Source of the DNA: Methanosarcina sp. KYL-1
Lineage (GTDB): Archaea; Halobacteriota; Methanosarcinia; Methanosarcinales; Methanosarcinaceae
Length of the DNA stretch: 64,000 nucleotides
Reading direction: 5' to 3'
Assembly (NCBI RefSeq): GCF_024372725.1
Contig: NZ_VOUA01000005.1
Coordinates: 62,001-126,000 of the forward strand
Under the pieces are notes generated by a model. That model was not told the origin of the DNA, searched no databases, and saw only the letters and a program-made list of their open reading frames with translations. The translations under genes were made by a program, and so were the position numbers. This document shows, piece by piece, positions 16,527 through 35,100 of this stretch (the stretch's first letter is position 1; each line of letters begins with the position of its first letter).

Positions 16527-17048
16527 ATGTTAATTTTCGGTCATATTGGGGTAACAGTTGGGATATTCATCTTACTTGAACGAATCGTTCCATCTCTCAG
16601 AGGCAGGTTTGCTTACTTCTACATAGCTCTTGGAGCACTGCTGCCCGACCTTCTTGATAAACCAATAGGCAGGGTGATCTTTGCCGAGAGCATTGCAAAT
16701 GGCCGTCTTCTGGGGCATACGCTTGCATTTTGTTTTTTTATTGCTTTGCTGGGTTATTATCAATACGGGAAGAGCAAAGATATACGTGTGTTTCTGGTGT
16801 CTGGAGCTTGTTTTCTTCACCTGCTTGAAGACCGAATGTGGGCAACACCTCATGTTTTTTTCTGGCCGGTTTTTGGCTGGGAGTTTCCCGTTGGCTCTTA
16901 TACAGGCAACGTGTTTGATTACTTCATTAAAATGTTCCGAATCGGGTATGTTCCGTCTCTTTGCCCCTGTTTCATCACCGAATTTATTGGTTTCATCATA
17001 GCGGCATTTATACTTGGAAATTACCTCCGGCACAGGCGAGCCCTTTGA
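16527..17048 (+). CDS. Membrane-bound DUF457/YdjM-like putative metal-dependent hydrolase
   Basis: A 173-residue polytopic membrane protein with about four to five hydrophobic segments. Conserved polar positions resemble the YdjM/DUF457 family: FGHIGVT at the N-terminus, GALLPDLLDKPIG, NGRLLGHTL and HLLEDRMW, giving the His/Asp set proposed to bind metal. Relatives are linked to membrane or lipid-related stress. It lies 90 bases upstream of the phosphopantetheinyl transferase and has the same direction, so it may belong to the cluster or be the last gene before it. Confidence 0.75.
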   Translation: MLIFGHIGVTVGIFILLERIVPSLRGRFAYFYIALGALLPDLLDKPIGRVIFAESIANGRLLGHTLAFCFFIALLGYYQYGKSKDIRVFLVSGACFLHLLEDRMWATPHVFFWPVFGWEFPVGSYTGNVFDYFIKMFRIGYVPSLCPCFITEFIGFIIAAFILGNYLRHRRAL

Positions 17049-17137: not shown

Positions 17138-17815
17138 ATGCAAACCAAAATAAAGATACCATCCACCACTTCTCTGGAACATGTGCCCCACTTATGGGAG
17201 CAAAATGATGTTCTTATCTTTCTGATTGATCTGGATAGCTACAACACACTGAGTACGGAACACCTTGACGGCATCGAAAAGGAATATCTGGAGAGGTTAC
17301 AAACCAGGCATTTCAAGAAAAGGTATACTGCATCCAGACTGGTCCTGAAATGTATTCTGTGCCGCCTCCTTAATGAACGGTCCGTCTCCGATATAGTTAC
17401 GTATAAGGACGAATATGGAAAAGTCCATGTGCGTGGCCATGAAGAATTGCACATATGCATCTCATATACTGGAAATATTGTCGCGCTTGCAATATCAAAG
17501 GTTGAGGTCGGGGTTGATATGGAGCTTAAAAGAATGCTGTCTCTTTCAAACATTTCAAAATATCTGTATACAAAACCTTTAGATGCCGATAAGTCCGGAA
17601 GCAATCTCGACCTTTTAACGACGTGGACCCTGAAAGAAGCGTATTGTAAGTTTTCGAATAAAAGTATTTTTTCCAATTTCAATAAAGAAATGGATTTTAG
17701 CAATGTCTGCAGTTCAAGTTATATTATAAACAATATATATATTCTTGCTATAATTACTGATTCTAATCGGTATACGCTCAAGATCTGCCGGCTTCAGAAA
17801 ATTTCCTTCCTGTAA
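17138..17815 (+). CDS. Sfp-type 4'-phosphopantetheinyl transferase
   Basis: A 225-residue protein with the Sfp-superfamily signature: VGVDMEL (Asp127 and Glu129, magnesium ligands) and WTLKEAYCKF (Trp163, Lys166, Glu167, Lys171). ISYTGNIVALAI corresponds to the usual SHS/A-containing strand. These enzymes transfer phosphopantetheine from CoA to a Ser of a carrier protein. Archaea make lipids without acyl carrier protein, so such a gene is unusual in a methanogen. An acyl carrier protein lies 600 bases downstream and is the obvious substrate. The C-terminal 40 residues are less conserved. The start lacks a strong ribosome binding site. Confidence 0.88.
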   Translation: MQTKIKIPSTTSLEHVPHLWEQNDVLIFLIDLDSYNTLSTEHLDGIEKEYLERLQTRHFKKRYTASRLVLKCILCRLLNERSVSDIVTYKDEYGKVHVRGHEELHICISYTGNIVALAISKVEVGVDMELKRMLSLSNISKYLYTKPLDADKSGSNLDLLTTWTLKEAYCKFSNKSIFSNFNKEMDFSNVCSSSYIINNIYILAIITDSNRYTLKICRLQKISFL

Positions 17816-18333
17816 AGATAAATCCTGTAAAGATAATTCCTGTAAAGAACAATTTTTTCAATTTTGTATCATCATAAAAAATTAAGATCTATTTTTTTGA
17901 ACTTTTCAAGAAACATTATTCCAAAAATTATTTCAGAAATTTTATTTCAATATCTATTTATTTTTTGGTACCTTATGTTACATGCTTATCTCTAACTATA
18001 CAAGCCTTTCCTTACAGGCAAAAAATTAAGCAAAAAAGAGTGGGAATTTAATACATGAAATAGGCATTAATCTATAGATACAAATTTAAGTGCAATGGAG
18101 TGCGGTTTTTCAACATTTAAAGTTATTAAAGCCCGATTTATTCATGATCGGGTGGAACAGGGGGTATGAGTTTATATGGAAAAGTCTCGCCGTAGCTTGT
18201 TTTATCCTTCCGGTTTTTAATTCATAAGTTTTGGTAGGGACGGTTGTAAAATGAAGCAGGGAACAATATAAATAATCGATTATACGTAAATAATAATGGG
18301 GATATTCTTACCGTAAAGGTGTTTATTAATCGC
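17816..18333. other. Intergenic region between PPTase and ACP genes
   Basis: About 500 bases with no recognised gene. Shortly after the PPTase stop there are repeated aatcctgtaaagata-like motifs. Near 18267-18297 there is an AT-rich TATA-like tract (aatataaataatcg, tatacgtaaataata) that may be the promoter of the ACP operon. Confidence 0.45.
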
Positions 18334-18401
18334 GACCATTGGTCTACTGTGGTCATTGGTCCACTGCGATCATTGATCCCGGGGGCTCATTGGTCCGCTA
18401 A
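18334..18401 (+). promoter_or_regulatory. Four 17-bp direct repeats upstream of the ACP gene
   Basis: Four imperfect copies with an exact 17-bp period start at 18334, 18351, 18368 and 18385. Each contains a core like (g)tcattggtcc. They lie between a TATA-like tract and the ACP start, about 25 bases from it. They could be operator sites for a regulator binding on nearly the same helix face, or a minisatellite like others in this window. Confidence 0.6.
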
Positions 18402-18424
18402 ATAAAGCAGGGGGTTAAGGTTAC

Positions 18425-18670
18425 ATGGGACAGATAATGAATGATATACTTGATTATCTGAAGGACAACTCTTTTATTGACAGGGAATCCAGTTTAAATT
18501 CCAGCGACTCACTGACACAGAACGGCATCATGGATTCGATCGGGCTGCTTGAATTGATGGACCATATCTGTGAAAAGTATTCTATAGAAATTCCTGAAGA
18601 CATGTTGACGCCGGAAAATTTTGACTCGTTGCAGGGGATCAATGACCTTATAGTTAAACTGACGAAGTGA
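18425..18670 (+). CDS. Acyl carrier protein (phosphopantetheine-binding)
   Basis: An 81-residue acidic four-helix carrier protein. MDSIGLLELMDHI contains the attachment site, Ser38, in the DS(I/L)xLLEL motif. Carrier proteins hold acyl or aminoacyl groups as thioesters. Its stop overlaps the first codons of the next open frame, so it is translationally coupled to the adenylate-forming ligase. Short carrier proteins coupled to a ligase resemble the DltC/DltA arrangement and those in some O-antigen loci. No beta-ketoacyl synthase gene is visible nearby. Confidence 0.9.
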   Translation: MGQIMNDILDYLKDNSFIDRESSLNSSDSLTQNGIMDSIGLLELMDHICEKYSIEIPEDMLTPENFDSLQGINDLIVKLTK

Positions 18671-18675
18671 AAATT

Positions 18676-20154
18676 ATGAGGATTGATGCCTATATCGCAG
18701 AATACGCCAGAAAAACTCCTCCTCAAATTGCTCTGGAAGAGGGGAAAAAATCCATCTCCTACAGGTGTCTTGATGAGGATATAAACACCATTGCTTCTTC
18801 ACTTATGGATTTTGGACATTGCAGATTTGCAATACTGGCAGAGTCCGGCATACAATATATTAAGATGCTAATGGCGGTATACCGTTCGGACAACATTGCG
18901 ATACCTCTGCCAATTGAAATGCCGAAGTTCAGTCTGGAAAGGATCCTTGATACTGCTCATATCAACAACATAATTGCAACAGAAACACAGTATTCAAGGT
19001 TTGGGGAGGATTTTTTTGAGCGTTTTGGAACTGTGCTCGTTTTTTCAAATGATACTTCCGTAGAGACCCGGCGTAAAAGGATCGCAACAGAAACAAATAA
19101 TCCCGAATTGAGGCTGGTGCTGTATACATCAGGTACGACAGGCACTCCTAAAGGGGTCATGTTAAGTGACAGAAACCTGGTATCAAATGCAGAATCGATA
19201 ATAAATGTACTTGGTATAAAATCTAATGATAAAGCAGCACTGGTAATATCCCCACATCATGCTTTTGGGAATTCCATTATCGATTCCCACCTGATGGCTG
19301 GCGGATCCATCGGAATAGGGACCATGAATTTTATGGAATCTACTTTCAGCCTGATAGAATCAGGAGTATCCATATTCTATGGAGTGCCCAGTACTTATCG
19401 TATACTCCTCCGGTATCCTGAGAGGTTCAGAGTGGCGTTTGGGAATGTCAGGACTGCTGCATCTGCAGGTGGGGGTATGGATCTGGCAACAGTCAAAAAT
19501 ATGAGGGATTTATGCTCTAACATCGAGATCCTGCCAATGTACGGTCAGACCGAAGCCACGGCAAGGCTGGCATACCTGCCGCCGGAGGACGTTGATGAGT
19601 TCGTTGACACAATAGGTAGACCGATTCCCGGGGTCATGCTGGAAGTATTCGGGGATGACAACAGGTCAGTAGAACCGAACATCACAGGTGAACTGGTTGC
19701 CAGGGGCGAAAATATCCTATTAGGTTACCTGGATGATGCAATCACCACTGAGAAAAAAATAATCGATGGGTGGATGCATACGGGGGACCTTGCACAAAAA
19801 TTGCCCAATGGTTATTTCAGACTATTGGGCCGCAAGGACGACCTTATAAAAATAGGGGACCATCGTGTAAATCCAAGAGAAGTTGAAAAACTTATCGAGA
19901 ACAACAATGATGTCTCCAGGGTTTTTGTTGTACCTGTTTCCCACGAGCTCCTGGGGACTGCAATCAGCCTTATGGTCATACCGACAGCAGGGACGGAAAT
20001 CGATACTCTGTTTTCGTTTTGCAGGAAGAACCTTCCCGGTTACCTGTATCCTACGGAGATACTTTTCATCGACAATCTTCCCCTGACAGAGAATGGGAAA
20101 ATATCCAATCGATCTATTATGGAGGAATACCAGAATGTCAAAAGTAGTATGTAA
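18676..20154 (+). CDS. Adenylate-forming (AMP-binding) ligase
   Basis: About 492 residues of the ANL superfamily (acyl-CoA synthetase/NRPS adenylation). Visible core motifs: YTSGTTGTPKG near residue 152 (A3), PMYGQTEAT (A5), HTGDLAQKL (A7), GRKDDLIKIGDHRVNPREVE (A8) and the A10 Lys in LTENGKIS. It would activate a carboxylic acid as the AMP ester and load it onto the neighbouring carrier protein. The substrate cannot be read from sequence. The frame opens at GTG 18667; ATG 18676 is the more natural start. The end overlaps the next gene by 20 bases. Confidence 0.9.
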   Translation: MRIDAYIAEYARKTPPQIALEEGKKSISYRCLDEDINTIASSLMDFGHCRFAILAESGIQYIKMLMAVYRSDNIAIPLPIEMPKFSLERILDTAHINNIIATETQYSRFGEDFFERFGTVLVFSNDTSVETRRKRIATETNNPELRLVLYTSGTTGTPKGVMLSDRNLVSNAESIINVLGIKSNDKAALVISPHHAFGNSIIDSHLMAGGSIGIGTMNFMESTFSLIESGVSIFYGVPSTYRILLRYPERFRVAFGNVRTAASAGGGMDLATVKNMRDLCSNIEILPMYGQTEATARLAYLPPEDVDEFVDTIGRPIPGVMLEVFGDDNRSVEPNITGELVARGENILLGYLDDAITTEKKIIDGWMHTGDLAQKLPNGYFRLLGRKDDLIKIGDHRVNPREVEKLIENNNDVSRVFVVPVSHELLGTAISLMVIPTAGTEIDTLFSFCRKNLPGYLYPTEILFIDNLPLTENGKISNRSIMEEYQNVKSSM

Positions 20155-21166
20155 AAAATGTGTTCTGGATTCGAGCATTCCGGGAATAATTATCAATGAG
20201 GGCAGCGGGCTCTGTCATTTCTGCGAGACGTATACTCCCCTTTCCTCACAGGAGAAGGATGAGTGCCTGGCCAGGATGGAAACACTCTTTGAGGAACGTG
20301 GGGGAAGAAGCAAGTACGACGTTATTTTTGCACTTTCCGGGGGGAAGGATTCTTCATACACTCTTTATAAACTAAAAAATGAATACCCCTTCCTGAAGGT
20401 CCTGGCTGTACAGTTCGATAATGGGTTTACATCCGATAATGCAATAGCAAATGCCAGGAAGATGTGTGAAATCACAGGATCCGACTATTTCAAACTGGCT
20501 GTGGAAAAGGAGATACTGTACGATACGTTCCGAAAGGCTGCTGAATCCAGCGATGCGTTCTCGAAGTTTGCCAAATACCGGGCAAGTGACATATGCAACA
20601 CCTGCATCAGTATAATCAAACAGAAATTGATAGAACAGGCCATCGTTCAGAACGCGCCTTTCATTATGTTTGCCTTTACGGCCGGGCAGGCCCCTCATCC
20701 CATAATCAATTTGACCTCTAAATTTATACAGTTATCAAGGAACCTTTTTGAGAAGCAACTTCAAAATATGGGCATAGATGACAGGGATGAGCGTTTCCTC
20801 ATTAAAAATTCAGTTATTGGGAACATGGGCAAAGATGCCCCAAGCATCCTGCATCCACTATGCCTGTGGGATTATAACGAAGATGCAATCCTGAAGACCC
20901 TTGTAGAGATAGGATGGAACCCTCCGGATATCAATGACAGCAATTCAACCAACTGTACATTGAACTCCTTTGCCTGTTATAATCATCTGGAAAAATACGG
21001 GTTCCATCCATATGCCTTTGACATAGCAGGACTTGTCCGAAGTGGGGATATGTCCAGGGAGGAAGGACTGGAAAAACTTCATCATGAGCTTTCACAGCCG
21101 CTGATAGAGGAAGCTGCAAATAAACTTAAATTACAGGTTGGGGACTCAAACATGTTATTGCTATAA
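20135..21166 (+). CDS. PP-loop ATPase, N-acetyl sugar amidotransferase (WbpG/PseA)-like
   Basis: About 343 residues. The N-terminus has two CxxC pairs (CKKC, then CHFC about 24 residues on), followed by the PP-loop LSGGKDSSYTL. A further CNTC lies near residue 160. This matches the N-acetyl sugar amidotransferase group, enzymes that adenylate a carbonyl and add ammonia to make an amidine. No HisH/HisF-type ammonia partners are visible here. GGAGG nine bases before the ATG at 20135 fixes the start, inside the end of the ligase gene. The substrate may be a sugar or the carrier-bound acyl group. Confidence 0.82.
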   Translation: MSKVVCKKCVLDSSIPGIIINEGSGLCHFCETYTPLSSQEKDECLARMETLFEERGGRSKYDVIFALSGGKDSSYTLYKLKNEYPFLKVLAVQFDNGFTSDNAIANARKMCEITGSDYFKLAVEKEILYDTFRKAAESSDAFSKFAKYRASDICNTCISIIKQKLIEQAIVQNAPFIMFAFTAGQAPHPIINLTSKFIQLSRNLFEKQLQNMGIDDRDERFLIKNSVIGNMGKDAPSILHPLCLWDYNEDAILKTLVEIGWNPPDINDSNSTNCTLNSFACYNHLEKYGFHPYAFDIAGLVRSGDMSREEGLEKLHHELSQPLIEEAANKLKLQVGDSNMLLL

Positions 21167-21199
21167 TCTTATTTTCTAGTCGTTGTAGGGGGGAAAATA

Positions 21200-22192
21200 A
21201 TGCAAATAATGGATGAACTGAATGTGCAGATAGTGGATAAACTGAATGGAGACATTGAAAATCTATCCTTAAGGCTCAGAGGATTTATCAAAGACCAGGT
21301 TTCGGGTTTTAAGAAAAAAGGAGTAGTTATGGGGGTTTCAGGAGGCATTGATTCAGCTGTAGCCCTTACTCTTTGCGTACGGGAACTGGGGAAAGACAAT
21401 GTGTACGGCTTGCTCCTTCCTGAAAAAGAATCGGCTCCTTCCAGCAAAACCCTGGGGGCAGAGGTTTGTGAAAGCCTCGGAGTGGCGTATGAAGAGGTTT
21501 CGATCTCTCCAATATTGAAATCACTTGATATCTATGATAAGAAAGAACAGATCATAAAGAGAACCTGTCCGGAATATGACTCCGGGATACACAAAACATC
21601 GCTGGTACTGCCCGATTTCCTGAATCAGGGACTGTTAAACGTTCCGTATATAAAGTTGATAAAGGACGGCGAAGAAGTTGCAAAGTACAGGTTGAAGGCA
21701 AAAGATTATCTGGAACTGATCGGGTTGCAGAATGTCAAGCAGCGGTCCAGAATGATTGTCCAGTATATGTATGCTGAGAAGATGAACTACGCCGTTTGCG
21801 GAACAACCAACAAGACCGAAATGGTCCTGGGCCAGTTTGTGAAATACGGAGACGGGGGCGTTGATATTGAACCCCTGGCGGATTGCTATAAGACCCAGGT
21901 TTATGCTCTGGCAAAATATCTCAATGTCAACGAAGCGATTATACAGCGGCCTCCAAGTGCTGACACCTGGAGCCATTACACCTCTGACCAGGACTTCTAC
22001 TGGCGCATGCCCATTCATATCATGGACCAATTACTGTATGCCTGGGAACATGAACTACCTGTAGAGGTTATTGAAAAGAACACCGAACTGTCCAGAGAGA
22101 CCATACTCAAGGCTCAAAGACATATTGATAGAATAAAAGATACCACCGAATATGTGCGGGCAGTCCCACCGATCTGCTATGTGGGGAAGTAA
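21200..22192 (+). CDS. NAD synthetase (NadE)-like ammonia-dependent amide synthase
   Basis: About 330 residues. It shows the NadE core: GVSGGIDSAVALTLC (PP-loop), KQRSRMIVQYMYAEKM, and CGTTNKTEMVLGQFVKYGDGG. These bind ATP and form an adenylated carboxylate, then an amide. It is longer than most archaeal ammonia-type NadE enzymes (about 250-270), with an insert near 125-165. It lies within a biosynthetic operon rather than near NAD genes, so it may amidate a different carboxylate. A role in plain NAD synthesis cannot be excluded. GGGGGG six bases upstream supports the start. Confidence 0.82.
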   Translation: MQIMDELNVQIVDKLNGDIENLSLRLRGFIKDQVSGFKKKGVVMGVSGGIDSAVALTLCVRELGKDNVYGLLLPEKESAPSSKTLGAEVCESLGVAYEEVSISPILKSLDIYDKKEQIIKRTCPEYDSGIHKTSLVLPDFLNQGLLNVPYIKLIKDGEEVAKYRLKAKDYLELIGLQNVKQRSRMIVQYMYAEKMNYAVCGTTNKTEMVLGQFVKYGDGGVDIEPLADCYKTQVYALAKYLNVNEAIIQRPPSADTWSHYTSDQDFYWRMPIHIMDQLLYAWEHELPVEVIEKNTELSRETILKAQRHIDRIKDTTEYVRAVPPICYVGK

Positions 22193-22245
22193 GTTGCAAT
22201 AGTAAGTTGCAGTATGTTCTCGAGAGGTGAGCCAGAGGGCGGAAA

Positions 22246-22986
22246 ATGCTTACAGGCAAAGTTGTACTGGTCACAGGAGCAAGCCGGGGAATCGGAAGAG
22301 CTATAGCCTTGCTGGCAGCAGAGAACCATGCACATGTGATCATAAACTACAACAAGAGTCAGGAGCAGGCAGTTGAACTGTTGGAGCTTATTTGTGGAAA
22401 AGGGCTTCATGCTTCAATGATCAGGGCAAATGTCTCATCCGAAGACGATGTCAGAGAAATGTTCCGGTCTCTTACGGAGATACATTCCAGGCTCGATGTG
22501 CTGGTAAACAATGCAGGAATCATGCAAAATAACCTTCTGATGCTGAGCAATACGGAACTTTTTGACCGTACCATAGAGACCAACCTGAAGGGGACGTTTC
22601 TGTGTACCAGGTACGCATCGAATATTATGAGGAAGCAGGGGTCCGGAAGAATCATTAATCTATCGTCCACCATAGGGCTCAACGGAAATGCCGGGCAGAC
22701 TGTATATTCTGCCAGCAAGGCAGGTGTTGTTGGATTTACAAAATCTGCTGCACAGGAACTGGGCAGATATGGGATCACAGTCAATGCTATTGCCCCCGGT
22801 TTTGTTGAGACTGACCTGATCAAAGGCCTCAAACCCGAAATTCGAGAAAAAATCATAGCCAATATCGCCCTTGGACGGATTGGTAAGCCCGAAGATGTCG
22901 CAAAGGTAGCATTGTTTTTGGGTTCGGACCTTGGGAGTTATGTCAGTGGTGAGGTCATTGTGGTGGATGGTTGCCGTATGATGTGA
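22246..22986 (+). CDS. FabG-like 3-oxoacyl-[ACP] reductase (SDR family)
   Basis: A 246-residue classical short-chain dehydrogenase. The nucleotide-binding motif TGASRGIG is near residue 10, NNAG near 90, catalytic Ser in NLSSTIG and YSASK near residues 150-155, and the usual APGFVETDL. It closely resembles FabG, which reduces a 3-oxoacyl group on a carrier protein with NADPH. With the ACP and ligase upstream, reduction of a carrier-bound oxoacyl group is the simplest reading, but sugar or other ketone substrates are possible. Confidence 0.9.
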   Translation: MLTGKVVLVTGASRGIGRAIALLAAENHAHVIINYNKSQEQAVELLELICGKGLHASMIRANVSSEDDVREMFRSLTEIHSRLDVLVNNAGIMQNNLLMLSNTELFDRTIETNLKGTFLCTRYASNIMRKQGSGRIINLSSTIGLNGNAGQTVYSASKAGVVGFTKSAAQELGRYGITVNAIAPGFVETDLIKGLKPEIREKIIANIALGRIGKPEDVAKVALFLGSDLGSYVSGEVIVVDGCRMM

Positions 22987-23144
22987 TTGTTATCTACATC
23001 GTACTGTCATAGATTTTGCATCCTTTCATGAAGTGGTGCAGAATTGAAAAAAAATCCATAAAAAATTCCATGAAAAGGGATTCAAAAAATGGGTTCTGAA
23101 ACGGGTTTATAAAATGGTTCAAAATTTTAATCCGATGTGTGACC

Positions 23145-24281
23145 ATGAACTCCAGAGTTTCCATCGTTCGCTGCTGCGATTATTCAAACGTAAGAGGTTC
23201 AATCGAAGAAGCAATTGAACTTATCGGTGGCCTTGATAAGGTTATAGCTCAGGGTTCCCGCGTACTGCTCAAACCTAATGTACTTGCCATCAGGCCTCCG
23301 GAAGATGCCGTCACCACCCACCCGGCAGTGGTATCTGCGATGTGTGAACTGGTCTCAGAGCTTGGGGGTATCCCGGTTATAGGGGATGGCTCCGGAGTTA
23401 CAAGGCCTGATTCCACTGCCACCGCAGAAGCATTCAGGGTATCAGGAATCGAAGATGCAGCTTCCGGTTGCGGGGCTGAGCTCATCAATTTCGAGCAATC
23501 AGGTTTTGTCGAGGTTGATATTCCCGATGCCAGGCAGTTTTCGCGTCTGTACATTTCGAAGGCCGTACTTGAGGCTGACGTAATTATCTCACTTCCAAAA
23601 CTCAAGACCCATGAGCTTACACTTTACACAGGAGCGGTCAAAAACTTTTTTGGCACTGTGCCTCGAAAAAACCGCAAACAAGCGCATTTCCTGGAAGACC
23701 GCGACCTTTTTGGGGAAGCGGTTGTAGATATATATTCTTTTATCAAACCTCATCTTGCAGTCATGGATGGTGTGGTGGGGATGGAGGGGGACGGCCCTTC
23801 CAGGGGTACCCCGGCATATGCAGGAGTAATTATGGCAAGTTATGACTGTGTAGCACTGGATGTGGTGGCATCGGAACTCATAGGGTTCGACCCATTGAAG
23901 ATCCCGACAAACCGGGCTGCACTTGCAAGGGGACTCGGCACCGGGCATCCTGAACTTGTAGGAACACCATTGGAGGAGGTACAGGTCAGGTTCAAAAAAC
24001 CAGCCGGAGGGGTCACTGCCATCATACCGCCATTCCTTCGAAGGGTGCTTAGAAGGCATTTTACTGTAAAGCCATTTATCAACACTTCAAGTTGTGCGCT
24101 TTGTAAAGCATGCGTTTTGAACTGTTCGGCAAATGCCATCGAAGAAGTGGATGGGGTACTTAGTATAGACGACGAAAAATGCATCCTGTGCTATTGTTGC
24201 CGCGAGTTGTGCCCGAATGATGCGGTAGAAATCAAAAAATCATTGCTTGTAAAGATTGCCAGCAGGAGTAAAAACCGGTAA
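23145..24281 (+). CDS. DUF362 protein with C-terminal 2x[4Fe-4S] ferredoxin domain
   Basis: About 378 residues. Residues 1-300 form a DUF362 domain (VLLKPNVLA, ISLPKLKTHELTLYTGAVKN). The C-terminus has two CxxCxxCxxxC motifs, CALCKACVLNCS and CILCYCCRELCP, each for a [4Fe-4S] cluster. The function of the family is unknown; it probably does an electron-transfer or reductive step. It lies about 150 bases after the reductase gene, same strand. No clear ribosome binding site is seen; the frame opens at GTG 23139 and ATG 23145 is preferred. Confidence 0.85.
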   Translation: MNSRVSIVRCCDYSNVRGSIEEAIELIGGLDKVIAQGSRVLLKPNVLAIRPPEDAVTTHPAVVSAMCELVSELGGIPVIGDGSGVTRPDSTATAEAFRVSGIEDAASGCGAELINFEQSGFVEVDIPDARQFSRLYISKAVLEADVIISLPKLKTHELTLYTGAVKNFFGTVPRKNRKQAHFLEDRDLFGEAVVDIYSFIKPHLAVMDGVVGMEGDGPSRGTPAYAGVIMASYDCVALDVVASELIGFDPLKIPTNRAALARGLGTGHPELVGTPLEEVQVRFKKPAGGVTAIIPPFLRRVLRRHFTVKPFINTSSCALCKACVLNCSANAIEEVDGVLSIDDEKCILCYCCRELCPNDAVEIKKSLLVKIASRSKNR

Positions 24282-24374: not shown

Positions 24375-25067
24375 ATGGTAAGTGAGTTGGGATTTTTACG
24401 GCAAGATGGGGGCACTACTGTGATATCTAACAGAGATAGGGTTACTTATAATGAAGTGGCTGATTATTATAATAGCAATAAAGTCCTTTTTGGAATAAAA
24501 TTTCTTAAAAATTGGTTTTTGGAGCGGCTTGCATCAAGTTTTCCTGTTCCTTCCTGGAGAGCGAAACTGCATAAGATGCGGGGTGTAAATGTCGGGAAGA
24601 ATGTATACATAGGTTATGATGTTATTTTTGACAGGATTCACCCTGAATTAATTACAATAGGGGATTATGCTGAAATTGGTGACCGGTGTATACTATCTGC
24701 CCACACAAGAGGCAGTTTAACCACAAGAGATGCTTATCCAAGAAGCACAGCTCCCATAAATATAGGAAATGGGGTTTCTATTAATCCGGGCTGTATAATC
24801 ACTCAGGGGGTCGAAATTGGAGAAAATTCCATTATAGGAATCGGATCTGTAGTTAGTCGCGATATCTCTCCAAATAGTCTTGCTCTTGGCTTTCCGGCTC
24901 GAGTCATAAAAAAGCTTGATGTTGGGCCTTGGGGGGCAGCTGCTGAAAACCATACACAAAAGGATGACTCCCATCTCCATCAGAATAAATCGAATGATGC
25001 TGTTTCATCAGATCTTCCCAGCGACTCAGCCCCACGAAAGGGTGCTGTTGGTGAGATAAAAATTTGA
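24375..25067 (+). CDS. Left-handed beta-helix (hexapeptide repeat) acyltransferase
   Basis: About 230 residues. The central part has hexapeptide repeats typical of O-acetyltransferases (VNVGKNVYIGYDVIF, ITIGDYAEIGDRCIL, INIGNGVSINPGC, GENSIIGIGSVVSRDI, ending GFPARVIKKL). Such proteins trimerise and transfer acetyl or other acyl groups from CoA to sugars or other hydroxyls or amines. The N-terminal 70 residues and the Asp/Ser/His-rich tail are not part of the core. In this context it likely modifies a surface sugar. Composition is more AT-rich than the preceding operon. Confidence 0.85.
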   Translation: MVSELGFLRQDGGTTVISNRDRVTYNEVADYYNSNKVLFGIKFLKNWFLERLASSFPVPSWRAKLHKMRGVNVGKNVYIGYDVIFDRIHPELITIGDYAEIGDRCILSAHTRGSLTTRDAYPRSTAPINIGNGVSINPGCIITQGVEIGENSIIGIGSVVSRDISPNSLALGFPARVIKKLDVGPWGAAAENHTQKDDSHLHQNKSNDAVSSDLPSDSAPRKGAVGEIKI

Positions 25068-25118: not shown

Positions 25119-25170
25119 AGGATGTACCATGCCATCATTAAATGAGGATGTACCATGTCATCATTAAATG
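25119..25170. repeat. 26-bp tandem duplication over the acyltransferase start
   Basis: A 26-bp segment (aggatgtaccatgccatcat... ) occurs twice back to back, 25119-25144 and 25145-25170, with one base change. Each copy holds an ATG in the same context. The second (25155) starts the acyltransferase 3 gene; the first opens only a short frame. Confidence 0.9.
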
Positions 25171-26309
25171 ATAAACTGACTCATATAGAAGAAATTGTTT
25201 ACTTAAGAGGATTTTCCATTCTTGCAGTTATTGCAATTCATACATCAGGTTATTTCAGTAAAGTTTCTACTCCAAATCTAACTGTTATTATTAACCTGGT
25301 AATAGGTGTCTTTTCTCACTTTGCTGTTCCGATGTTTATTTTCATATCCGGGTTTGTTTTAAGCCTCAAATACCGTGAAAATATTCATAAAATAAATTTT
25401 GTCAAAAAAAGAATGAAATCTATAGTACCTCAATATCTGATTTTTTCATTTGTTTATCTCATAATGAAAGAGTTTCACACTTTATATGCAAGTTTGCTGG
25501 GATTGCCTTCGGTAAGTGGTGTTTCTGAAAGACTTTCTATAGGTATTATTCTATTCAAATTATTAACCGGGAGTAGCTGTTTTCACTTGTGGTTTATTAT
25601 ATTAATTATCCAATTTTATCTTTTGTATCCCTTCATCATAAAAGTCTATACTAAATATTCTCAAAAAAATAGTATCATGTTGTTAATGCTCATCGCCTAT
25701 TTTACCCAGGTAATCTGGGAAATCTATATTCTTGACTTAAATAATAGGGCGTCTTTGAACCTTCAATTTATAAATTATATTTATTTGCCGTCTTATACCT
25801 TCTATTTTATAGCGGGAATTTACTTTTCTCAACATTTTGAAGCCATAATGAGCATGATTTCAAAATACAAAATAAACATAGTCGTGTTATCTATTATTAT
25901 AATTTTAACTGTTGTCAGCTCTTATTTGACTTTCGAGATATACTATGGATCTCTTAATGAAACGCATCCCTACTCTTCCTTAATATTGATCTTTATTAGT
26001 CCTATATATTACTCATCAATTTGTTTGATCCTTATTACCATTGCTAGAAAATTAACCCGGCAAAATACTGTTTATTCTGTTACCATTCATCGATTTGGAG
26101 AATACTCTTTTGGAATATACTTGATCCATGGTGTTTTTTTATATTGTATACTTGCTCTACTGAATGTATTTGGTGTAACCCCTAAATCTTTCATTTTTTA
26201 TCCTTTATATACCATCATGGTTACCGGGCTAAGTTACACCAGTGTATGCCTTTTGAATCGTCTACCTTTAGGCAGCTATGTTATCGGGCAGTCCAGAAAA
26301 TCAAATTAA
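25155..26309 (+). CDS. Acyltransferase 3 (OafA/YrhL-type) membrane protein
   Basis: A 384-residue protein with about ten transmembrane helices. The N-terminal YLRGFSILAVIAIHTSGYF carries the conserved Arg and His of acyltransferase family 3, followed by FAVPMFIFISGFVLSLKYR. These membrane enzymes move acyl groups (acetyl, succinyl and others) onto surface polysaccharides or lipids. It could use an acyl group made by the carrier-protein cluster, but this is inference. The coding region is AT-rich. Confidence 0.88.
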   Translation: MSSLNDKLTHIEEIVYLRGFSILAVIAIHTSGYFSKVSTPNLTVIINLVIGVFSHFAVPMFIFISGFVLSLKYRENIHKINFVKKRMKSIVPQYLIFSFVYLIMKEFHTLYASLLGLPSVSGVSERLSIGIILFKLLTGSSCFHLWFIILIIQFYLLYPFIIKVYTKYSQKNSIMLLMLIAYFTQVIWEIYILDLNNRASLNLQFINYIYLPSYTFYFIAGIYFSQHFEAIMSMISKYKINIVVLSIIIILTVVSSYLTFEIYYGSLNETHPYSSLILIFISPIYYSSICLILITIARKLTRQNTVYSVTIHRFGEYSFGIYLIHGVFLYCILALLNVFGVTPKSFIFYPLYTIMVTGLSYTSVCLLNRLPLGSYVIGQSRKSN

Positions 26310-27433: not shown

Positions 27434-28918
27434 TTAGTTGGAAATGCTTCTGGAGGCTTCGTTTGTGTTGCCGTATCGTCCAATATTGATCCGGTCTCCG
27501 TTTGATTCAGGTTCATTACGGTAATCTGACAGAGAATATCCGGCATCAATTAGTGGGCTTGTTTCATTATCAAATACCCACTCGTTCTCAAACCAGTGTC
27601 CTGAAGCACTCTTCAGGTGGTAATCGTTTTTCGAGGGGTCTACAAAGAGGGGGTCACTCAGAATATCATCTAACTGTGAGATTCCCGGGCCTACATATGA
27701 ACCGCCTGTATTGTTGTTGAAACAGTTGTTTTCGGATTTAATTGCGTATTTGCCCGAAGCCGTGTCCTGAACCCAGATCCCGGCCGCTGCATGGTCGTCC
27801 TGGTTAAGGATAATGTTATTTCTTACCGTTGCTGTAAAGGTTTCACTCATTTGATATTTGCTTGAGTATTTCCAGAACTTAATTCCAGCATGTCCGCCAT
27901 TATCAATTATGTTGTTCTCAATTCTGGTATTATCAAACTGACTAATTATGATACCCGCATTGCTGTATCCGGTATCTACCCAGTACTGGCCAACATTCTT
28001 GAATATATTGTGGTGAATGTATACATCTTGGCCACGCTTTACATTATCGTTATCGTAGCCAAACATCCAGATCCCAGCACCGTTCAGCGTGTGCAGGACA
28101 TTGTTATAAATCTCAATATCATCCATTGCATAGCTATTTGTTTTTTGTATTTCAATACCCGGACCTGTTGAAGACCCGCTGCTAAGCTTATATTCCGAAT
28201 GTATGAGATTGTCGTGAAGTTTTGCGTTGTTTGAATTTGTTAATCTTAGAGCACTATTTGTCCGCGTGAAAATATCGTTGTTAGCGGCTACAATGTTGTT
28301 CGAGTACATGCAGTACAGTGCATCATGGCCAAGCTGGTAAACGGTATTGTTAACGAAATTTACATTATCTACATTTTCCACCTTAAGGCCGTCACCGCAG
28401 CCGTGATGCAAATACATATTCTCTACTGTAATGTCGGAGGACTTGGTGAAATGCATTAAATTATAATATCCTCTTCCTAACCTGCTGCTTCCTAAGGACA
28501 TCTGTTTTTCACTGTTACCATCAATCTCAAAACCCCGGATGGTAATATTGTCATTTCCGGCCGAATCCCGGTTTTTAATCAGGGGAACCAACGTCTTCCA
28601 ACCTGCTTCATCGGCTAATTTAATACAGGCGTCCGAATCACCTTCAAGTATTGTGTTATCCCCGATGAGGAGGGTACTGTCTATTACGTATGTGAAAGGT
28701 CCTTTAAGGTAAACAGTTGTATATTGTGGGTTGTCTGCTACGAATTTAAGGGCTTCATTTATCTGCACATGGTCATCTTTTCCATCGCAGTTAAAGTCTC
28801 CACTGCCATCTCCGGCAACATAAACGGTTGGTGCCGTCGGCGCGGCTAAAGTAGTGGGAATGCCTGTTAGAAGGAGACTTGTTAGTAGAAATAGGGTTCC
28901 TAATTTTCGTTTTAACAT
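27434..28918 (-). CDS. Secreted right-handed beta-helix protein (disaggregatase-related), short form 1
   Basis: A 494-residue secreted protein with a signal peptide (Lys/Arg then LFLLTSLLLTGIPTTLA). It follows with VYVAGDGSGDFNCDGKDDH and a long right-handed parallel beta-helix with many NN turns (SNNIVAANNDIF, NTRIENNIIDNGGHAG), as in pectate-lyase-like enzymes. It matches the N-terminal part of the 1176-residue protein at 32187-35717 nearly along its length, but stops at EASRSISN without the C-terminal repeats. It may bind or cut the methanochondroitin-like cell envelope polysaccharide. Possibly a truncated copy, though the frame is intact. Confidence 0.85.
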   Translation of the reverse strand: MLKRKLGTLFLLTSLLLTGIPTTLAAPTAPTVYVAGDGSGDFNCDGKDDHVQINEALKFVADNPQYTTVYLKGPFTYVIDSTLLIGDNTILEGDSDACIKLADEAGWKTLVPLIKNRDSAGNDNITIRGFEIDGNSEKQMSLGSSRLGRGYYNLMHFTKSSDITVENMYLHHGCGDGLKVENVDNVNFVNNTVYQLGHDALYCMYSNNIVAANNDIFTRTNSALRLTNSNNAKLHDNLIHSEYKLSSGSSTGPGIEIQKTNSYAMDDIEIYNNVLHTLNGAGIWMFGYDNDNVKRGQDVYIHHNIFKNVGQYWVDTGYSNAGIIISQFDNTRIENNIIDNGGHAGIKFWKYSSKYQMSETFTATVRNNIILNQDDHAAAGIWVQDTASGKYAIKSENNCFNNNTGGSYVGPGISQLDDILSDPLFVDPSKNDYHLKSASGHWFENEWVFDNETSPLIDAGYSLSDYRNEPESNGDRINIGRYGNTNEASRSISN

Positions 28919-29392
28919 TTAATCACCTTTATTTGGGTTGGATCATATAGGGTTTTTTTGGGATATTCATTTATTGAATTTTATATTATATCTTTATTAT
29001 ATTGTCTGTAACATTGAATACTTCTGCAAGGTTTGATTCTAATCTTTTTCAGATCTTTTTTCGGTTTCTTTTGGGTTCTTACCCGCTGCTTGAAGAAAGT
29101 ATCCACTCTTCAGCTCTAACTTTCTAAACCGTATTTTATCTGATGAGGGCTGAATATAAAGCCTCAGCCTATTAATTTTAAATGAAAATTCGTTATATTT
29201 AACAGGATTTCTTTATTTCCCTTTTTCTGGGTTATACCTCCTGTTTGGCTGGATTGTTCCCTTCAATCGATCAACTCTGTAAATTCATCTGTATTCAGTC
29301 TTTGGTTATATTTCTCGAGTTGACTTCGCTCTTTTATTCCAGCATATTATAAAATATTTTTGGTATAACTCTCAGATTTTTAATCTGTTTGC
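28919..29392. repeat. Duplicated 5' flank of beta-helix genes (copy 1)
   Basis: About 470 bases upstream of the 27434-28918 gene are closely similar to 35718-36185, upstream of the large disaggregatase-like gene. The similarity covers ribosome binding site, promoter and beyond, so gene and regulatory region were duplicated together. It includes the shared attaattttaaatgaaaatt tract and T-rich segments. Confidence 0.85.
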
Positions 29393-30151
29393 TACTGTGC
29401 CTTAATTTTGCAGGTTAAAGTCACATATTTCCGGTATCTGCAAGCAAAACATAATCAAACAGAATGATCAATATGTATCTACGGAGGTCGTTTTTTCATG
29501 CCCTCATTATCTTCTCCAAATATGAAATTGATTAATATATTTTTTGACAAGATAGATATTTTTTTAAATAAAAATTAAAATAGATAATAGTACATTTGTT
29601 TCAAGGTACGCTGATGGTAAAAAATAGGTAACGTATCTGGGTATATGGTGTTTCTCGCTGAAAGTTGCTAGAATTCCTTCTATAACTGACAAGTTGTTTT
29701 CCGGATTGCAAACCTGTATGACCTGATTTTGCAGAAAGCTACTTCTCAGTATACTAAGGATCATCAACCATTTCAAGAGCAGTCCCTGAACGGCCTTCTT
29801 ATCTTCAGGTTTTCTTTCTGCTCTTTTTGCGGCGACTCCGGGTTTTAGGTTTTTAACACAAAAAAGTCCGTAGAAGGAGGTTTACTTCTTTTCCACTGTT
29901 TTGGTTTGAAGCGAGTTTCTAAGGCTGCAATCTTTCATCAAGCTTTAACTTGAGATTTTGAAGTTTCCTTCTCCTTCTGTTTTGATGCCAATTTTCAGCA
30001 TCAGTATGTATTTGCTTCGACAACTGTTACTATCAGCGTCACATTATCTGCACCCACAGGGTCTTGTGTACGCTGGATTACTGCTCCACCGCTGCCACGC
30101 AGGTATCTTTAAAAGATCACCGTCTTGTCTGAGCCTTCGGAAGACTGCAGG
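29393..30151. other. Intergenic region, no confident gene
   Basis: About 760 AT-rich bases. A weak minus-strand frame (29564-29776) lacks a ribosome binding site and recognisable domains. The stretch 29965-30151 partly resembles 27300-27433 downstream of the related gene, consistent with shared 3' flanks of the duplicated genes. Confidence 0.45.
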
Positions 30152-31657
30152 TTAATTGGAAATGCTTCTGGAGGCTTCGTTTGTGTTGCCGTATCGTCCA
30201 ATATTGACCCGGTCCCCGTTTGATTCAGGTTCATTCCGGTAATCTGATATTGAATGTCCGGAATCAATCAATGAACTTGTTTCATCATCAAATACCCATC
30301 CGTTTTCAGACCAGCGTCCTGCAACGCTCTTCAAGTGGTAATCGTTTTTTGAGGGGTCCGCAAAGAGAGGGTCGGCCTGAATATCATTAGATTGGGTGAT
30401 GCCTGGACCTGCATATGAACCACCTCTGTTGTTGTAAAAGCAATTATTCTCAGATACAATTTTGTATTTATTTGCTGTGTCATCCTGAACCCATATTCCT
30501 GCCGCAGTATGGTCATCGTGATTGAGGATAATGTTATTTCTTAAAGTTGCTGTAAAAGTTCCACTCATTTGATATTGGCTCGAGTATTTCCAGAATTTGA
30601 TCCCGGCATGTCCACCATCATCAATCACGTTATTCTCAATCCTGGTGTTATCAAACTGACTTATTACAATGGCCGCATTACTGTATCCCGTATCTTTCCA
30701 ATATTGTCCAACATCACGGAATATATTATTATGTATGTACACATCACTGCCACGTATTCTCTTATCATGGCCATACATAAAAATGCCAGCGCCGTTAAGC
30801 GTATGTATCTCATTATTAAAAATCTCTATATCATCCATTAAGTAGTTATTTGTCTTTTGTAATTGAATGCCGGGGCCTGTTGAATACCCACTAAATTCTG
30901 AATGTATGATATTGTTGTAAAATTTTGCATGGTTTGAATTTGATAATCTAAGAGCACTGTTTGTTCTCGTGAAAATATCATTGTTAGCGGCTATAATATT
31001 GTTCGAATAAAGACAATAAACTACGTCATGCCCAAGTTTATATACAATATTGTTCTCGAAAATGACATTGTCTGAATACTCTACTTTCAATCCATCATTG
31101 CAACCATGATGCAGATACATATTCTGCACTTTGATGTTAGTGGACTTGCTAAAATACATCATTGTATAATATGAATTTCCCAACCTTCTACTTCCTAATG
31201 ACATCTGTTCTTCGCTGTTACCATCAATCTCAAAACCTTGAATCGTAATATTTTTGTTTCCAGATGAATCCCGGTTTTTAATCAGGGGAATCGCTTTTGC
31301 CCAACCTGCCGAATTGGGTATCGTAATACATGCATCTGAATCGCCCTCAAGTATTGTGTCATCACCGATAAGAAGGGTGTCGTTTATTACGTATTTGAAG
31401 GGCCCCTTAAGGTATACGGTTGTGAATTCAGGGTTTTCTTCTACAAAATTAAGAGCTTCATTTATTTGCAAATGGTCATCAGTGCCGTCACAATTATAAT
31501 CTCCGCTGCCATCTCCAGCAACATATACTGTTAGCTCCTTTGTAGTTGGGTTATTAAAGATTGTAGTTGGGTTAAAGATAATACTGGCAGAGATTGCTAT
31601 CAAAAGAATAAAAATTACAATATATCTCTTTATTTTTGAATCCCAACTAATACCCAT
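30152..31657 (-). CDS. Secreted right-handed beta-helix protein (disaggregatase-related), short form 2
   Basis: About 501 residues. An N-terminal membrane anchor or signal (YIVIFILLIAISASIIF) replaces the signal peptide of the other paralogues. The rest is the same beta-helix core: VYVAGDGSGDYNCDG, NTRIENNVIDDGGHAG, ending EASRSISN. It is more diverged than the other two copies and has its own leader. ATG 31657 is chosen because AGAGGG lies seven bases upstream; the frame opens at 31690. Likely exported and held at the membrane, acting on envelope polysaccharide. Confidence 0.83.
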   Translation of the reverse strand: MGISWDSKIKRYIVIFILLIAISASIIFNPTTIFNNPTTKELTVYVAGDGSGDYNCDGTDDHLQINEALNFVEENPEFTTVYLKGPFKYVINDTLLIGDDTILEGDSDACITIPNSAGWAKAIPLIKNRDSSGNKNITIQGFEIDGNSEEQMSLGSRRLGNSYYTMMYFSKSTNIKVQNMYLHHGCNDGLKVEYSDNVIFENNIVYKLGHDVVYCLYSNNIIAANNDIFTRTNSALRLSNSNHAKFYNNIIHSEFSGYSTGPGIQLQKTNNYLMDDIEIFNNEIHTLNGAGIFMYGHDKRIRGSDVYIHNNIFRDVGQYWKDTGYSNAAIVISQFDNTRIENNVIDDGGHAGIKFWKYSSQYQMSGTFTATLRNNIILNHDDHTAAGIWVQDDTANKYKIVSENNCFYNNRGGSYAGPGITQSNDIQADPLFADPSKNDYHLKSVAGRWSENGWVFDDETSSLIDSGHSISDYRNEPESNGDRVNIGRYGNTNEASRSISN

Positions 31658-32186
31658 AAGTTTTCCCTCTTGTATTTTCCAACATCTCAAAGTAAAGCTA
31701 TTATGATATGTTTTTTAGTTCAAAAAAGGTTATCTGTTGGTTGGGAAGCTTATGCTTTTCCGGTTTTGTAGAAAACCTATCTAAATCAACTGCAAGAGGC
31801 CGAAAATTAGTACGTAATAGAATATCAGGCCATTCAGTTCAAATTAATTCAGATTCTTTATTCCAGAGTATTTTCAGGAGGATTTATTCCAGAGGATTTC
31901 TACAGAGCCACTTTTCAATGATTCAATTTCTTTTTCAAGTGACATTGCCGCAAAAATTCCAGTTGGCCGATAACTATTCGGTGTAATATGTGATAAATGG
32001 AAGAAGTTAGGGTGTCTCAAAAAAGCCATCTTGATAAATATTGTTTTTGAAGAAAATTCCTGCAAAATAGTCCAACAATAAAAATCTGCTGAGGAAAAAT
32101 TAACTCTAAAAATTAGCAGCACAGGAAGGATTTCTCCATCTGTGCGGTTTTTTTTCGGTTTATTAATGTCTGATACTGCGAAAATT
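31658..32186. other. Intergenic region, no recognised gene
   Basis: About 500 AT-rich bases between two beta-helix genes. It shares a segment like caaaaaagccatcttgataa (32020s) with 15170-15190, hinting at a dispersed short repeat. I see no coding or RNA gene. Confidence 0.4.
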
Positions 32187-35100
32187 TTATGCTTTTTCCA
32201 ATATTAACTTTGGCCTCTGGTTTTCATCTTCATAGTCGCTGCTGTAGAATGCCACGTAGTTTTTGCTTTCTATGCGGGCTTTAATCAGGAACCCGGTGTT
32301 TTCGTACTTCCCGCTTACGTACTCATTCACAAGGTCGGTGACGTCCAGTTCATGGTAACTGTTGTCAGGGGCCTCGCTTCCATTGAGGGTAAGGGTTGCG
32401 TAGGGGGTGCTGCCCTGAGCTACGTTGTTCTTATCAAACCAGTCTCCACCTGCATGGTCCCACGGGTTGTTAAGGTCCCAGTTGTTCCAGGTCACGTAAT
32501 CCGGGTTCCAGACTTTCGGCCGGTAGATTTCGACAATTGTGTCCTCTGGCCTTTCAATTCCGGCAGGGTAGTACCAGAAGAGAGAAAGGGTAGCTTTTTC
32601 GAGAGTTTTCTCACTGTCGTATTCGCTTAAGTCGAATAAGAGCAGGTCTCTGTAGGCACCAACTCCGTCCCTTCCTCCGAGGTCTATATACCTCACGTCC
32701 TTGAAGGCCGTATTAGGGGACCCTTCACGAAGGCGGCTGTCCAGAAGATCACTAAGGACAACAGGTTCCGAAACTGGTTTCTGTGTTATGTTGAGTTTCG
32801 GTGTGCATCCTTCGATTCCGCAATCGCTGCTGTAGAAGGCTATGTAGTTTCCGCTTTCATTGCGGGCTTTAATCAGGAATCCGGTGTTTTCGTACTTCCC
32901 ACTTACGTATTCTTTCATAAGGTCGGTGACATCAAGCTCATAGTAACCATTGCCAGGTACGTCACTTCCCTTGAGGGTCAGTGTTGCGTAAGGAGCACTT
33001 CCCTGGGAGACACCGTCCTTATCGAACCAGTCTCCTCCGGCATTTTCCCACGGCTTATTAAGGTCCCGGTTGTTCCAGGTCACAGAATCGGGGTTCCAGG
33101 TTTCAGGCCTGTAGATTTCTACAATGGTATCTTCTGGCCTTTCTGTCCCGGCAGGGTAGTACCAGAAAAGGGAAAGGTTAGCCTTTTCGATAGTCTCCGC
33201 ACTGTCGTATTCACTTAAGTTGAACAGGAGCAGGCCTCTGTATGCACCGACTTTGTCTCTTCCTCCGAGATCTATATAGCGCAAGTCCTTGAAGACTGTA
33301 TCAGGTGAAGCTTCACGGAGGCGGTTATCCTGAAGGTCACTGAGGGTGACAGGTTCAGTTATTTTTTTCTGTGTTATGTCAAGTTTCGGTTTGCATCCTT
33401 CGATTTCGTAGTCGCTGCTGTAGAAAGCTATATAGTTTCCGCTTTCACTGCGGTCTTTTATCAGGAATCCGGCGTTCTCGTACTCTCCGCTAACATATTC
33501 TTTCACAAGGTCGGTTACATCCAGCTCGTGGTAACCATCGTCAGCGAAGTCACTTCCATTAAAGGTAATTGTTGCATAGGGGGTGCTGCCCTGGGAGATG
33601 TTGTTCTTATCATACCAGTCTCCTCCTGCATTGTCCCACGGGTTGTTAAGGTCCCGGTTGTTCCAGCTCACGTAGTTCGGGTTCCACTCCTCAGGCCTGT
33701 AAATTTCCACTATGGTGTCCTCCGGCCTCACATTACTTTTCGGATAATACCAGAAGAGTGAAAGAGTTGCTTTGTCTATTGTCTCCGCATCGCTGTATGC
33801 ACTCAGGTCAAACCATAAGACATCTCTGTACCTTCCCTTCCCGCTTATTTCTCCAATATCGATGTAGTTGTTGTCTCCTATTACTGCATCAGGTGAAGCT
33901 TCACGGAGGCGGTTGTCATATATCTCTTCATTGGGGACAGGGTTTTCTCCACTTACTACGACGGTAATGGTGGCTTCCTTTGAGTCGGAAAGTTTTCCGT
34001 CGCTTGTAGTGAATGTCACTTTGTATGTTCCTGCTTGGCCCTCTGTCGGAGTCCAGGTGAAAGAACCTGATTCACTGTTAAGGTTTGCACCCACAGGGAG
34101 GTTTGAAGCTGAATATGTAAGGCTGTCTCCATCCGCATCCGTAGCTTTCACTGTGAAAGTCAGGGTGCTGCCTTCTTCAACTGTTTGACTGGTAATTGAG
34201 TCCATTACCGGAGCATTGTTGGCCGGAATCGTGCCGCTTGATCCGGATAATGATGCATATTTTGTGTTTCCGTATCTTCCGATGTTGATTCTGTTTCCGT
34301 TGTCTTCAGGTTCATTGGAATAATCTGAAGAGGTATATCCTCCATCGATGCAGGGGGAACTTACTGTATCTGCTGCCCATGTTTTTCCATCCCAGTGTCC
34401 GCTTTTGGACTTCAGATGGTAGTCGTTTTTCGAGGGGTTTACAAAGAGAGGGTCAGTCAGAATATCATTTGATCGGGTAATGCCCGGACCTAAGTACGAG
34501 CCGCCTGCATTGTTATAGAAACAGTTGTTTTCGGATTTAATTGCGTATTTGCCCGAAGCCGTGTCCTGGACCCATATCCCGGCTGCTTCATGGTCATCGT
34601 GGTTGAGAACAACGTTATTCCTTACAGTTGCTGTAAAGGTTCCGCTCATCTGATATTGGCTTGAATATTTCCAGAATTTTATTCCGGCATGCCCGCCGTT
34701 ATCAAATACGTTGTTTTCAATTCTGGTATTATCAAACTGGCTGATTATGATGCCCGCATTGCTGTATCCGGTATCTACCCAGTACTGGCCAACATTCTTA
34801 AATATATTATGGTGGATGTACACATCACTGCCACGCTTAACGTTATCGTTGTCGTAACCAAACATCCAGATCCCGGCACCGTTCAGCGTGTGGAGAACAT
34901 TGTCAAAAACCTCAATATCTCCCATTGTATAGCCATTTGTTTTTTGTATTTCAATGCCAGGGCCTGTTGAAGACCCGCTGCTAAGCTTATATTCCGAATG
35001 TATGAGATTGTCGTGAAGTTTTGCGTTGTTTGAATTTGTCAATCTCAGTGCACTGTTTGTCCGCGTAAAAATATCGTTGTTAGCGGCTACAATGTTTTTT

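Follow-up and report, generated by a model that had tools for sequence, protein, structure and literature searches.

A 64,000-nucleotide stretch of the Methanosarcina sp. KYL-1 genome (assembly GCF_024372725.1, contig NZ_VOUA01000005.1, positions 62,001 to 126,000; the whole stretch is called the window hereafter) carries a gene cluster that includes an acyl carrier protein (ACP). Its core comprises the genes for a phosphopantetheinyl transferase (PPTase; gene PPT), the ACP, an AMP-forming ligase (LIG), a PP-loop enzyme (PPL) and a NadE-like enzyme (NADE), and reaches Methanosarcinaceae and Methanomicrobiales. A FabG-like gene (SDR), a DUF362 gene and a hexapeptide acyltransferase gene (HEX) are lineage-specific additions to this core. 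We are nearly certain that the cluster encodes a co-functional ACP pathway, and PPL is probably an iron-sulfur (Fe-S) enzyme of the AANH type acting on a carrier-bound substrate. The cluster was classed as a variant of thiotemplated PP-loop pathways, apparently a new one, and no description of it, or of such carrier-tethered chemistry in archaea, was found in the literature searched. Its genes are laid out as follows.

17138..17815, + strand: PPT, Sfp-type phosphopantetheinyl transferase (PF01648 and motifs)
18425..18670, + strand: ACP (PF00550); phosphopantetheine Ser38 codon at about 18536-18538
18676..20154, + strand: LIG, acid-activating AMP-forming ligase (PF00501); alternative GTG start at 18667
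20135..21166, + strand: PPL, PP-loop (AANH) enzyme; Zn-ribbon Cys6/9/27/30, SGGKDS at residues 68-73, predicted [4Fe-4S] triad Cys154, Cys157, Cys274
20594..20605, + strand: PPL codons Cys154 to Cys157 (CNTC), predicted iron-sulfur triad
20954..20956, + strand: PPL codon Cys274, third predicted cluster ligand
21200..22192, + strand: NADE, NadE-like ammonia ligase of the PRK00876 subfamily; insertion absent from housekeeping NadE
22246..22986, + strand: SDR, FabG-like, conserved in sister genera
23145..24281, + strand: DUF362 protein with two C-terminal 4Fe-4S sites; alternative GTG start at 23139
24375..25067, + strand: HEX, hexapeptide-repeat acyltransferase, co-conserved in Methanosarcina

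Co-conservation of a core with its own carrier protein

The seven genes from PPT to DUF362, which the original prediction had placed in one direction, are indeed all open on the + strand of the window. From ACP to HEX the intergenic gaps are small or negative, and an overlap of about 20 nt between LIG and PPL is seen both in the window and in relatives. PPT may be on a separate transcript because 610 bp separate it from ACP. The conserved start of LIG is the ATG at 18676, so that the overlap of a GTG start with the ACP stop, and with it the translational coupling proposed for ACP and ligase, is uncertain.

Co-occurrence was evaluated in 345 genomes of the phylum, with cut-offs of E<=1e-40 for PPL, E<=1e-60 for NADE and E<=1e-6 for ACP. 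Each of the three was found in 25 genomes belonging to six genera, and the three genome lists were identical. These genomes include relatives and thus are not independent, so the co-occurrence is given without a probability. Two genomes of 99% completeness from cluster-bearing genera, one Methanosarcina (G014) and one of genus g5 (G237), lack PPL, NADE and ACP together, demonstrating that the loss of these genes is coupled. A LIG relative (about 74-80% identical at the protein level) is encoded in most of the 30 other Methanosarcina genomes; G014 and G016 have a distant ligase only. The order PPT-ACP-LIG-PPL-NADE-DUF362-HEX is kept in 27 loci of the genus, although some loci, most of them extra copies, lack one or more of these genes. 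Synteny is also kept in three sister genera. PPL, ACP and NADE are still neighbours in Methanomicrobiales (Methanoregula, Methanoculleus and others), where PPL and NADE are 46-61% identical to those of the window, the ligase is mostly divergent (about 32% identical to LIG) and a PPTase is often present. Several of these loci have all five core genes together, and in nearly all of them ACP adjoins PPL. Of the seven families originally listed, five thus form the core, and the FabG and DUF362 genes are lineage-specific accessories.

The source genome (G000; 4.04 Mb, 66 contigs) gave a single PPTase match and a single ACP match, both in the cluster. This supports the proposed dedicated carrier-protein pathway, which brings its own PPTase and acid-activating enzyme. 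PPT matched PF01648 with E=7.5e-5, slightly below the Pfam cut-off, and passed the Sfp-type motif test (G-x-D-x-E, W-x-x-K-E, with K replaced by R in one relative); its catalytic G125/D127/E129 together with W163/E167 were invariant in 8 aligned sequences. The ACP scored above the PF00550 cut-off, and its D37-S38-I39 was invariant in 16 sequences. The absence of a ketosynthase was also borne out, since a search of the whole genome returned only one weak partial match to this family.

LIG matched PF00501 with 5e-53. In amino-acid-activating adenylation domains (A-domains), an Asp holds the alpha-amine of the substrate. When LIG was aligned to a gramicidin synthetase domain, Gly was found at this position, which makes an alpha-amino acid an improbable substrate of LIG. 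A dicarboxylic acid would be the simplest choice, if NADE amidates the same molecule. The PDB neighbours of LIG gave no specific substrate match.

Members of the NadE family make an amide from an acyl adenylate and ammonia. NADE passed the PRK00876 'NAD(+) synthase' profile NF002048 (482 bits vs a cut-off of 313). A shorter, ordinary NadE is encoded elsewhere in the source genome, so NADE is not the sole NAD synthetase candidate. Moreover, NADE contains an insertion of about 60 residues that is common to NadE paralogues on rhizobial plasmids and absent from housekeeping NadE. Genes for an ACP and AsnB accompany these paralogues, and an AMP-ligase is annotated in two of the three regions. A housekeeping role for NADE was rejected on the grounds of the separate NadE and the shared insertion. 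The idea that the cluster consists of ordinary housekeeping copies is likewise refuted, as the housekeeping NadE and the tRNA thiolase NcsA are encoded elsewhere and no second PPTase or ACP was found. We also noted that the three rhizobial regions (L131, L132 and L133) are asnB-ACP-ligase-nadE clusters, that of S. meliloti pSymB adjoining minCDE; their product was not found in a literature search.

A distinct group of PP-loop enzymes

In the original prediction, PPL was described as WbpG/PseA-like. Its best NCBIfam family is indeed WbuX (TIGR03573), and the four-Cys zinc motif and PP-loop of this family are present; however, PPL scored 108 bits against a cut-off of 203.2. All 34 PPL relatives have the N-terminal zinc-type Cys4, SGGxDS, Cys154, Cys157 and Cys274. 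As a control, WbuX-family proteins were taken from the same genome set: among the 16 above the cut-off, the PP-loop was present and the Cys4 nearly always, but none had the Cys triad. Assignment of PPL to the WbpG/WbuX amidotransferases was rejected on these two grounds, the missed cut-off and the invariant CxxC...C triad.

The relatives of PPL point elsewhere. In an hhalign comparison with NcsA of the source genome, the PP-loop and the CxxC both aligned. The AlphaFold2 (AF2) model of PPL (pLDDT 92) had as nearest PDB folds the N-acetyl sugar amidotransferase (NASAT) of Legionella, then the Fe-S thiolases NcsA and TtuA. Two bacterial proteins of the nonribosomal peptide synthetase (NRPS) type, encoded on plasmids of Roseovarius and Streptomyces, each include a PP-loop domain with the same triad, and in a tree these embedded domains form one clade with PPL (SH-aLRT 96), apart from WbuX. 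CtaC of closthioamide biosynthesis has a TtcA/TtuA-type [4Fe-4S] motif, depends on D77, S78, C154, C157 and C284, and is active solely on carrier-bound substrate (PMC6772006). The position pattern of these residues is matched by D72, S73, C154, C157 and C274 of PPL, and, as for CtaC, a carrier protein and an adenylating enzyme are encoded alongside, here with a PPTase. CtaC homologues are reported mainly from anaerobic bacteria, although the supplementary tables of that paper may list archaeal ones (PMC6772006). NASAT is described as a zinc protein, and a text search of its description found no Fe-S cluster (PMC10607449). It is because of the triad, the NcsA alignment, the clade with NRPS domains, the CtaC motifs and the contrast with WbuX and NASAT that PPL is read as a carrier-linked Fe-S enzyme of the CtaC type.

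A second WbuX-like group below the cut-off was also observed (L157-L160, L162, L164 and L165, and Methanosarcina G008, G010 and G021). It has a different triad, CxxC ... DC, and may be another Fe-S PP-loop enzyme under the WbuX name.

Proposed pathway and its alternatives

Gene content, co-conservation and motifs were observed directly, and from them we infer each catalytic step. To judge from its motifs, PPT would convert the lone ACP to the holo form, and LIG would adenylate a carboxylic acid that lacks an alpha-amino group and load it onto ACP. With ATP and ammonia, NADE could amidate a free carboxylate of this acid, either before loading or on the carrier. PPL might adenylate the amide oxygen of the ACP-held substrate, and a [4Fe-4S] cluster on Cys154/157/274 might deliver sulfide to yield a thioamide, in the manner of CtaC in the closthioamide pathway. 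This last step is proposed because of the triad, the clade with NRPS-embedded domains and the ACP-PPL linkage. In some lineages, SDR and the DUF362-ferredoxin protein may tailor the acyl group. An acyltransferase (HEX in Methanosarcina, a GNAT type in several Methanomicrobiales) would then transfer it to an acceptor molecule, which may be an amino sugar on a surface glycan.

This scheme as a whole, that is acid loading, amidation, oxygen-to-sulfur exchange on ACP and transfer by an acyltransferase, is the likeliest reading, at about even chances, and a thioamide or other sulfur group is an even call for the product. We propose only tentatively, with the balance leaning against it, the more specific thiotemplated thioamide pathway of methanogens, in which one small acid is loaded, amidated and sulfurated on a dedicated ACP without NRPS or polyketide synthase (PKS) and the thioamide group is attached to a surface glycan or released as a small molecule.

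Several points weigh against the scheme. The fold of PPL is closest to the amidine-forming NASAT (TM 0.67 vs 0.35-0.39 for NcsA/TtuA). Rhizobial relatives of the cluster have AsnB in the place of PPL, which fits two nitrogen-adding steps. The CtaC comparison rests on motif positions and published text and is not a sequence alignment; the NRPS-embedded relatives were used in the tree. Finally, the second CxxC...C group has no known ACP link, therefore the triad alone is no proof of carrier dependence. Fold, closest curated family (WbuX, 108 bits) and the rhizobial AsnB all favour an alternative in which PPL keeps the NASAT reaction on the ACP-bound amide made by NADE, adding ammonia to give an amidine and thus an amidino-acyl product; ammonia could serve both enzymes. 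However, PPL missed the WbuX cut-off (203), its invariant triad was absent from 16/16 WbuX proteins, its clade stands apart from them, and the Fe-S enzymes of the superfamily named in PMC6772006 (TtcA/TtuA/Ncs6 and CtaC) insert sulfur. We therefore consider amidine formation unlikely, at perhaps one chance in a few.

The destination of the product was considered from the genes around the loci. The commonest Methanosarcina locus has unrelated flanking genes and no adjoining glycan genes. Three extra copies (L030, L031 and L040, in G006 and G029) run straight into glycosyltransferase/flippase-type genes, as judged by eye from the sequences. In Methanomicrobiales, the genes surrounding several loci include glycosyltransferases, flippases, deacetylases and sugar (DegT) aminotransferases, and several loci encode a GNAT-like protein of about 375 residues. 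A product that decorates a surface sugar, as originally suggested, thus gains indirect support from these loci and none from the window. A glycan acceptor is plausible although it falls a little short of an even chance, with a free small molecule as the alternative.

The same flanking genes would suit a pathway in which NADE and PPL act on a nucleoside diphosphate (NDP)-sugar (uronamide and acetamidino formation) and ACP, LIG and the acyltransferase separately make the N-acyl group of the same glycan. We regard this as improbable: the commonest Methanosarcina locus lacks such genes, and ACP-PPL adjacency and the NRPS-embedded relatives suggest a carrier-bound substrate. A reading of NADE as a redundant NAD synthetase, with the remaining genes as an ordinary acyl-modification operon, agrees with the PRK00876 score of NADE, but is scarcely credible given the normal NadE encoded elsewhere, the perfect co-occurrence of NADE with ACP and PPL and the insertion common to NADE and the ACP-linked bacterial paralogues.

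Accessory genes, neighbours and comparison with known systems

SDR is located between NADE and DUF362 in the source genome; in the sister genera g5, g7, g8 and Methanolobus it follows NADE immediately. It scored 272 bits against TIGR01830 (FabG 3-oxoacyl-ACP reductase; cut-off 297.75) and passed PRK12826, a subfamily model of FabG-like SDRs. No orthologue was found in the 30 other Methanosarcina genomes, a single relative of 45% identity being on a different contig in G024. A FabG-like reduction is therefore unsupported as a general step of the pathway, and SDR was rejected as a member of the universal core, despite its presence in sister genera. The g5 loci lack DUF362 and HEX, and the AF2 model of the DUF362 protein (pLDDT 43) was unusable. 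Further features of the window are:

16527..17048, + strand: YdjM-type membrane protein, upstream of PPT
25155..26309: acyltransferase-3 (AT3) gene
about 37.3-46.5 kb, - strand: glycan/polysaccharide locus

The adjacent acyltransferases and the glycan locus had been linked to the cluster. Comparison of loci places HEX within the unit in Methanosarcina; AT3, which has no counterpart in the compared loci, and the glycan locus of the window are not conserved with the cluster and were discarded as members. Near the polysaccharide locus, three large beta-helix proteins are encoded at 27434-35717 on the - strand, of which the two scanned were disaggregatase-related. Methanolobus and sister genus g7 share with the window a YdjM-type gene adjoining the cluster (L080-L082, L103, L114), and the c6 gene found 3' of HEX in many Methanosarcina resembles it by eye.

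The cluster genes have closer counterparts in sister genus g7 than in Methanosarcina, and the opposite holds for UppS. Recent import of the cluster into the source genome is unsupported, as the neighbours p89 and SSP411 are likewise nearer to g7. G006 and G029 carry two and three cluster copies, respectively (L030, L031, L034, L040, L044); the L044 copy has a broken ligase gene, and the extra copies adjoin iorAB-like gene copies or fragments and glycosyltransferases. A contig labelled Thermoplasmata (L097) carries a Methanoregula-like cluster, whose PPL shares 71% identity with the one in a Methanoregula metagenome-assembled genome; mis-binning or transfer is the probable cause.

To our knowledge, archaeal lipids are generally made without ACP; nevertheless, a group of methanogens has retained one PPTase and one ACP for this pathway. 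If PPL is a true carrier-dependent sulfur inserter, the range of thiotemplated chemistry would extend to archaea; as Methanosarcina is genetically tractable, it would provide a simple system, with a single acid, for its study. Two groupings are defined as well: a PP-loop subgroup, for which 'N-acetyl sugar amidotransferase' is the closest curated name, and a NadE-like subfamily linked to ACP, whose members are annotated 'NAD synthase' in both archaea and rhizobia.

Compared with known systems, the cluster resembles that of closthioamide (cta) in combining, in an anaerobic host, a carrier protein and a loading enzyme with an adjacent PP-loop enzyme that has CxxC and a distant Cys. Unlike cta, it is archaeal, lacks ATP-grasp, peptidyl transferase and transglutaminase genes, and has instead NadE-like, SDR, DUF362 and acyltransferase genes. 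PPL shares its overall fold, N-terminal four-Cys zinc motif and PP-loop with the WbuX/WbpG/PseA NASAT (8WEX), but differs in its Fe-S-type triad, its score below the family cut-off and its link to an ACP. With the [4Fe-4S] tRNA thiolases TtuA/NcsA it shares the PP-loop followed by CxxC and a third Cys, whereas its carrier-protein context is different and its fold is nearer to NASAT. The rhizobial clusters (S. meliloti pSymB, Nitratireductor, Mesorhizobium) have the ACP, the AMP-ligase and a PRK00876 NadE paralogue with the same insertion, but AsnB where the archaeal cluster has PPL.

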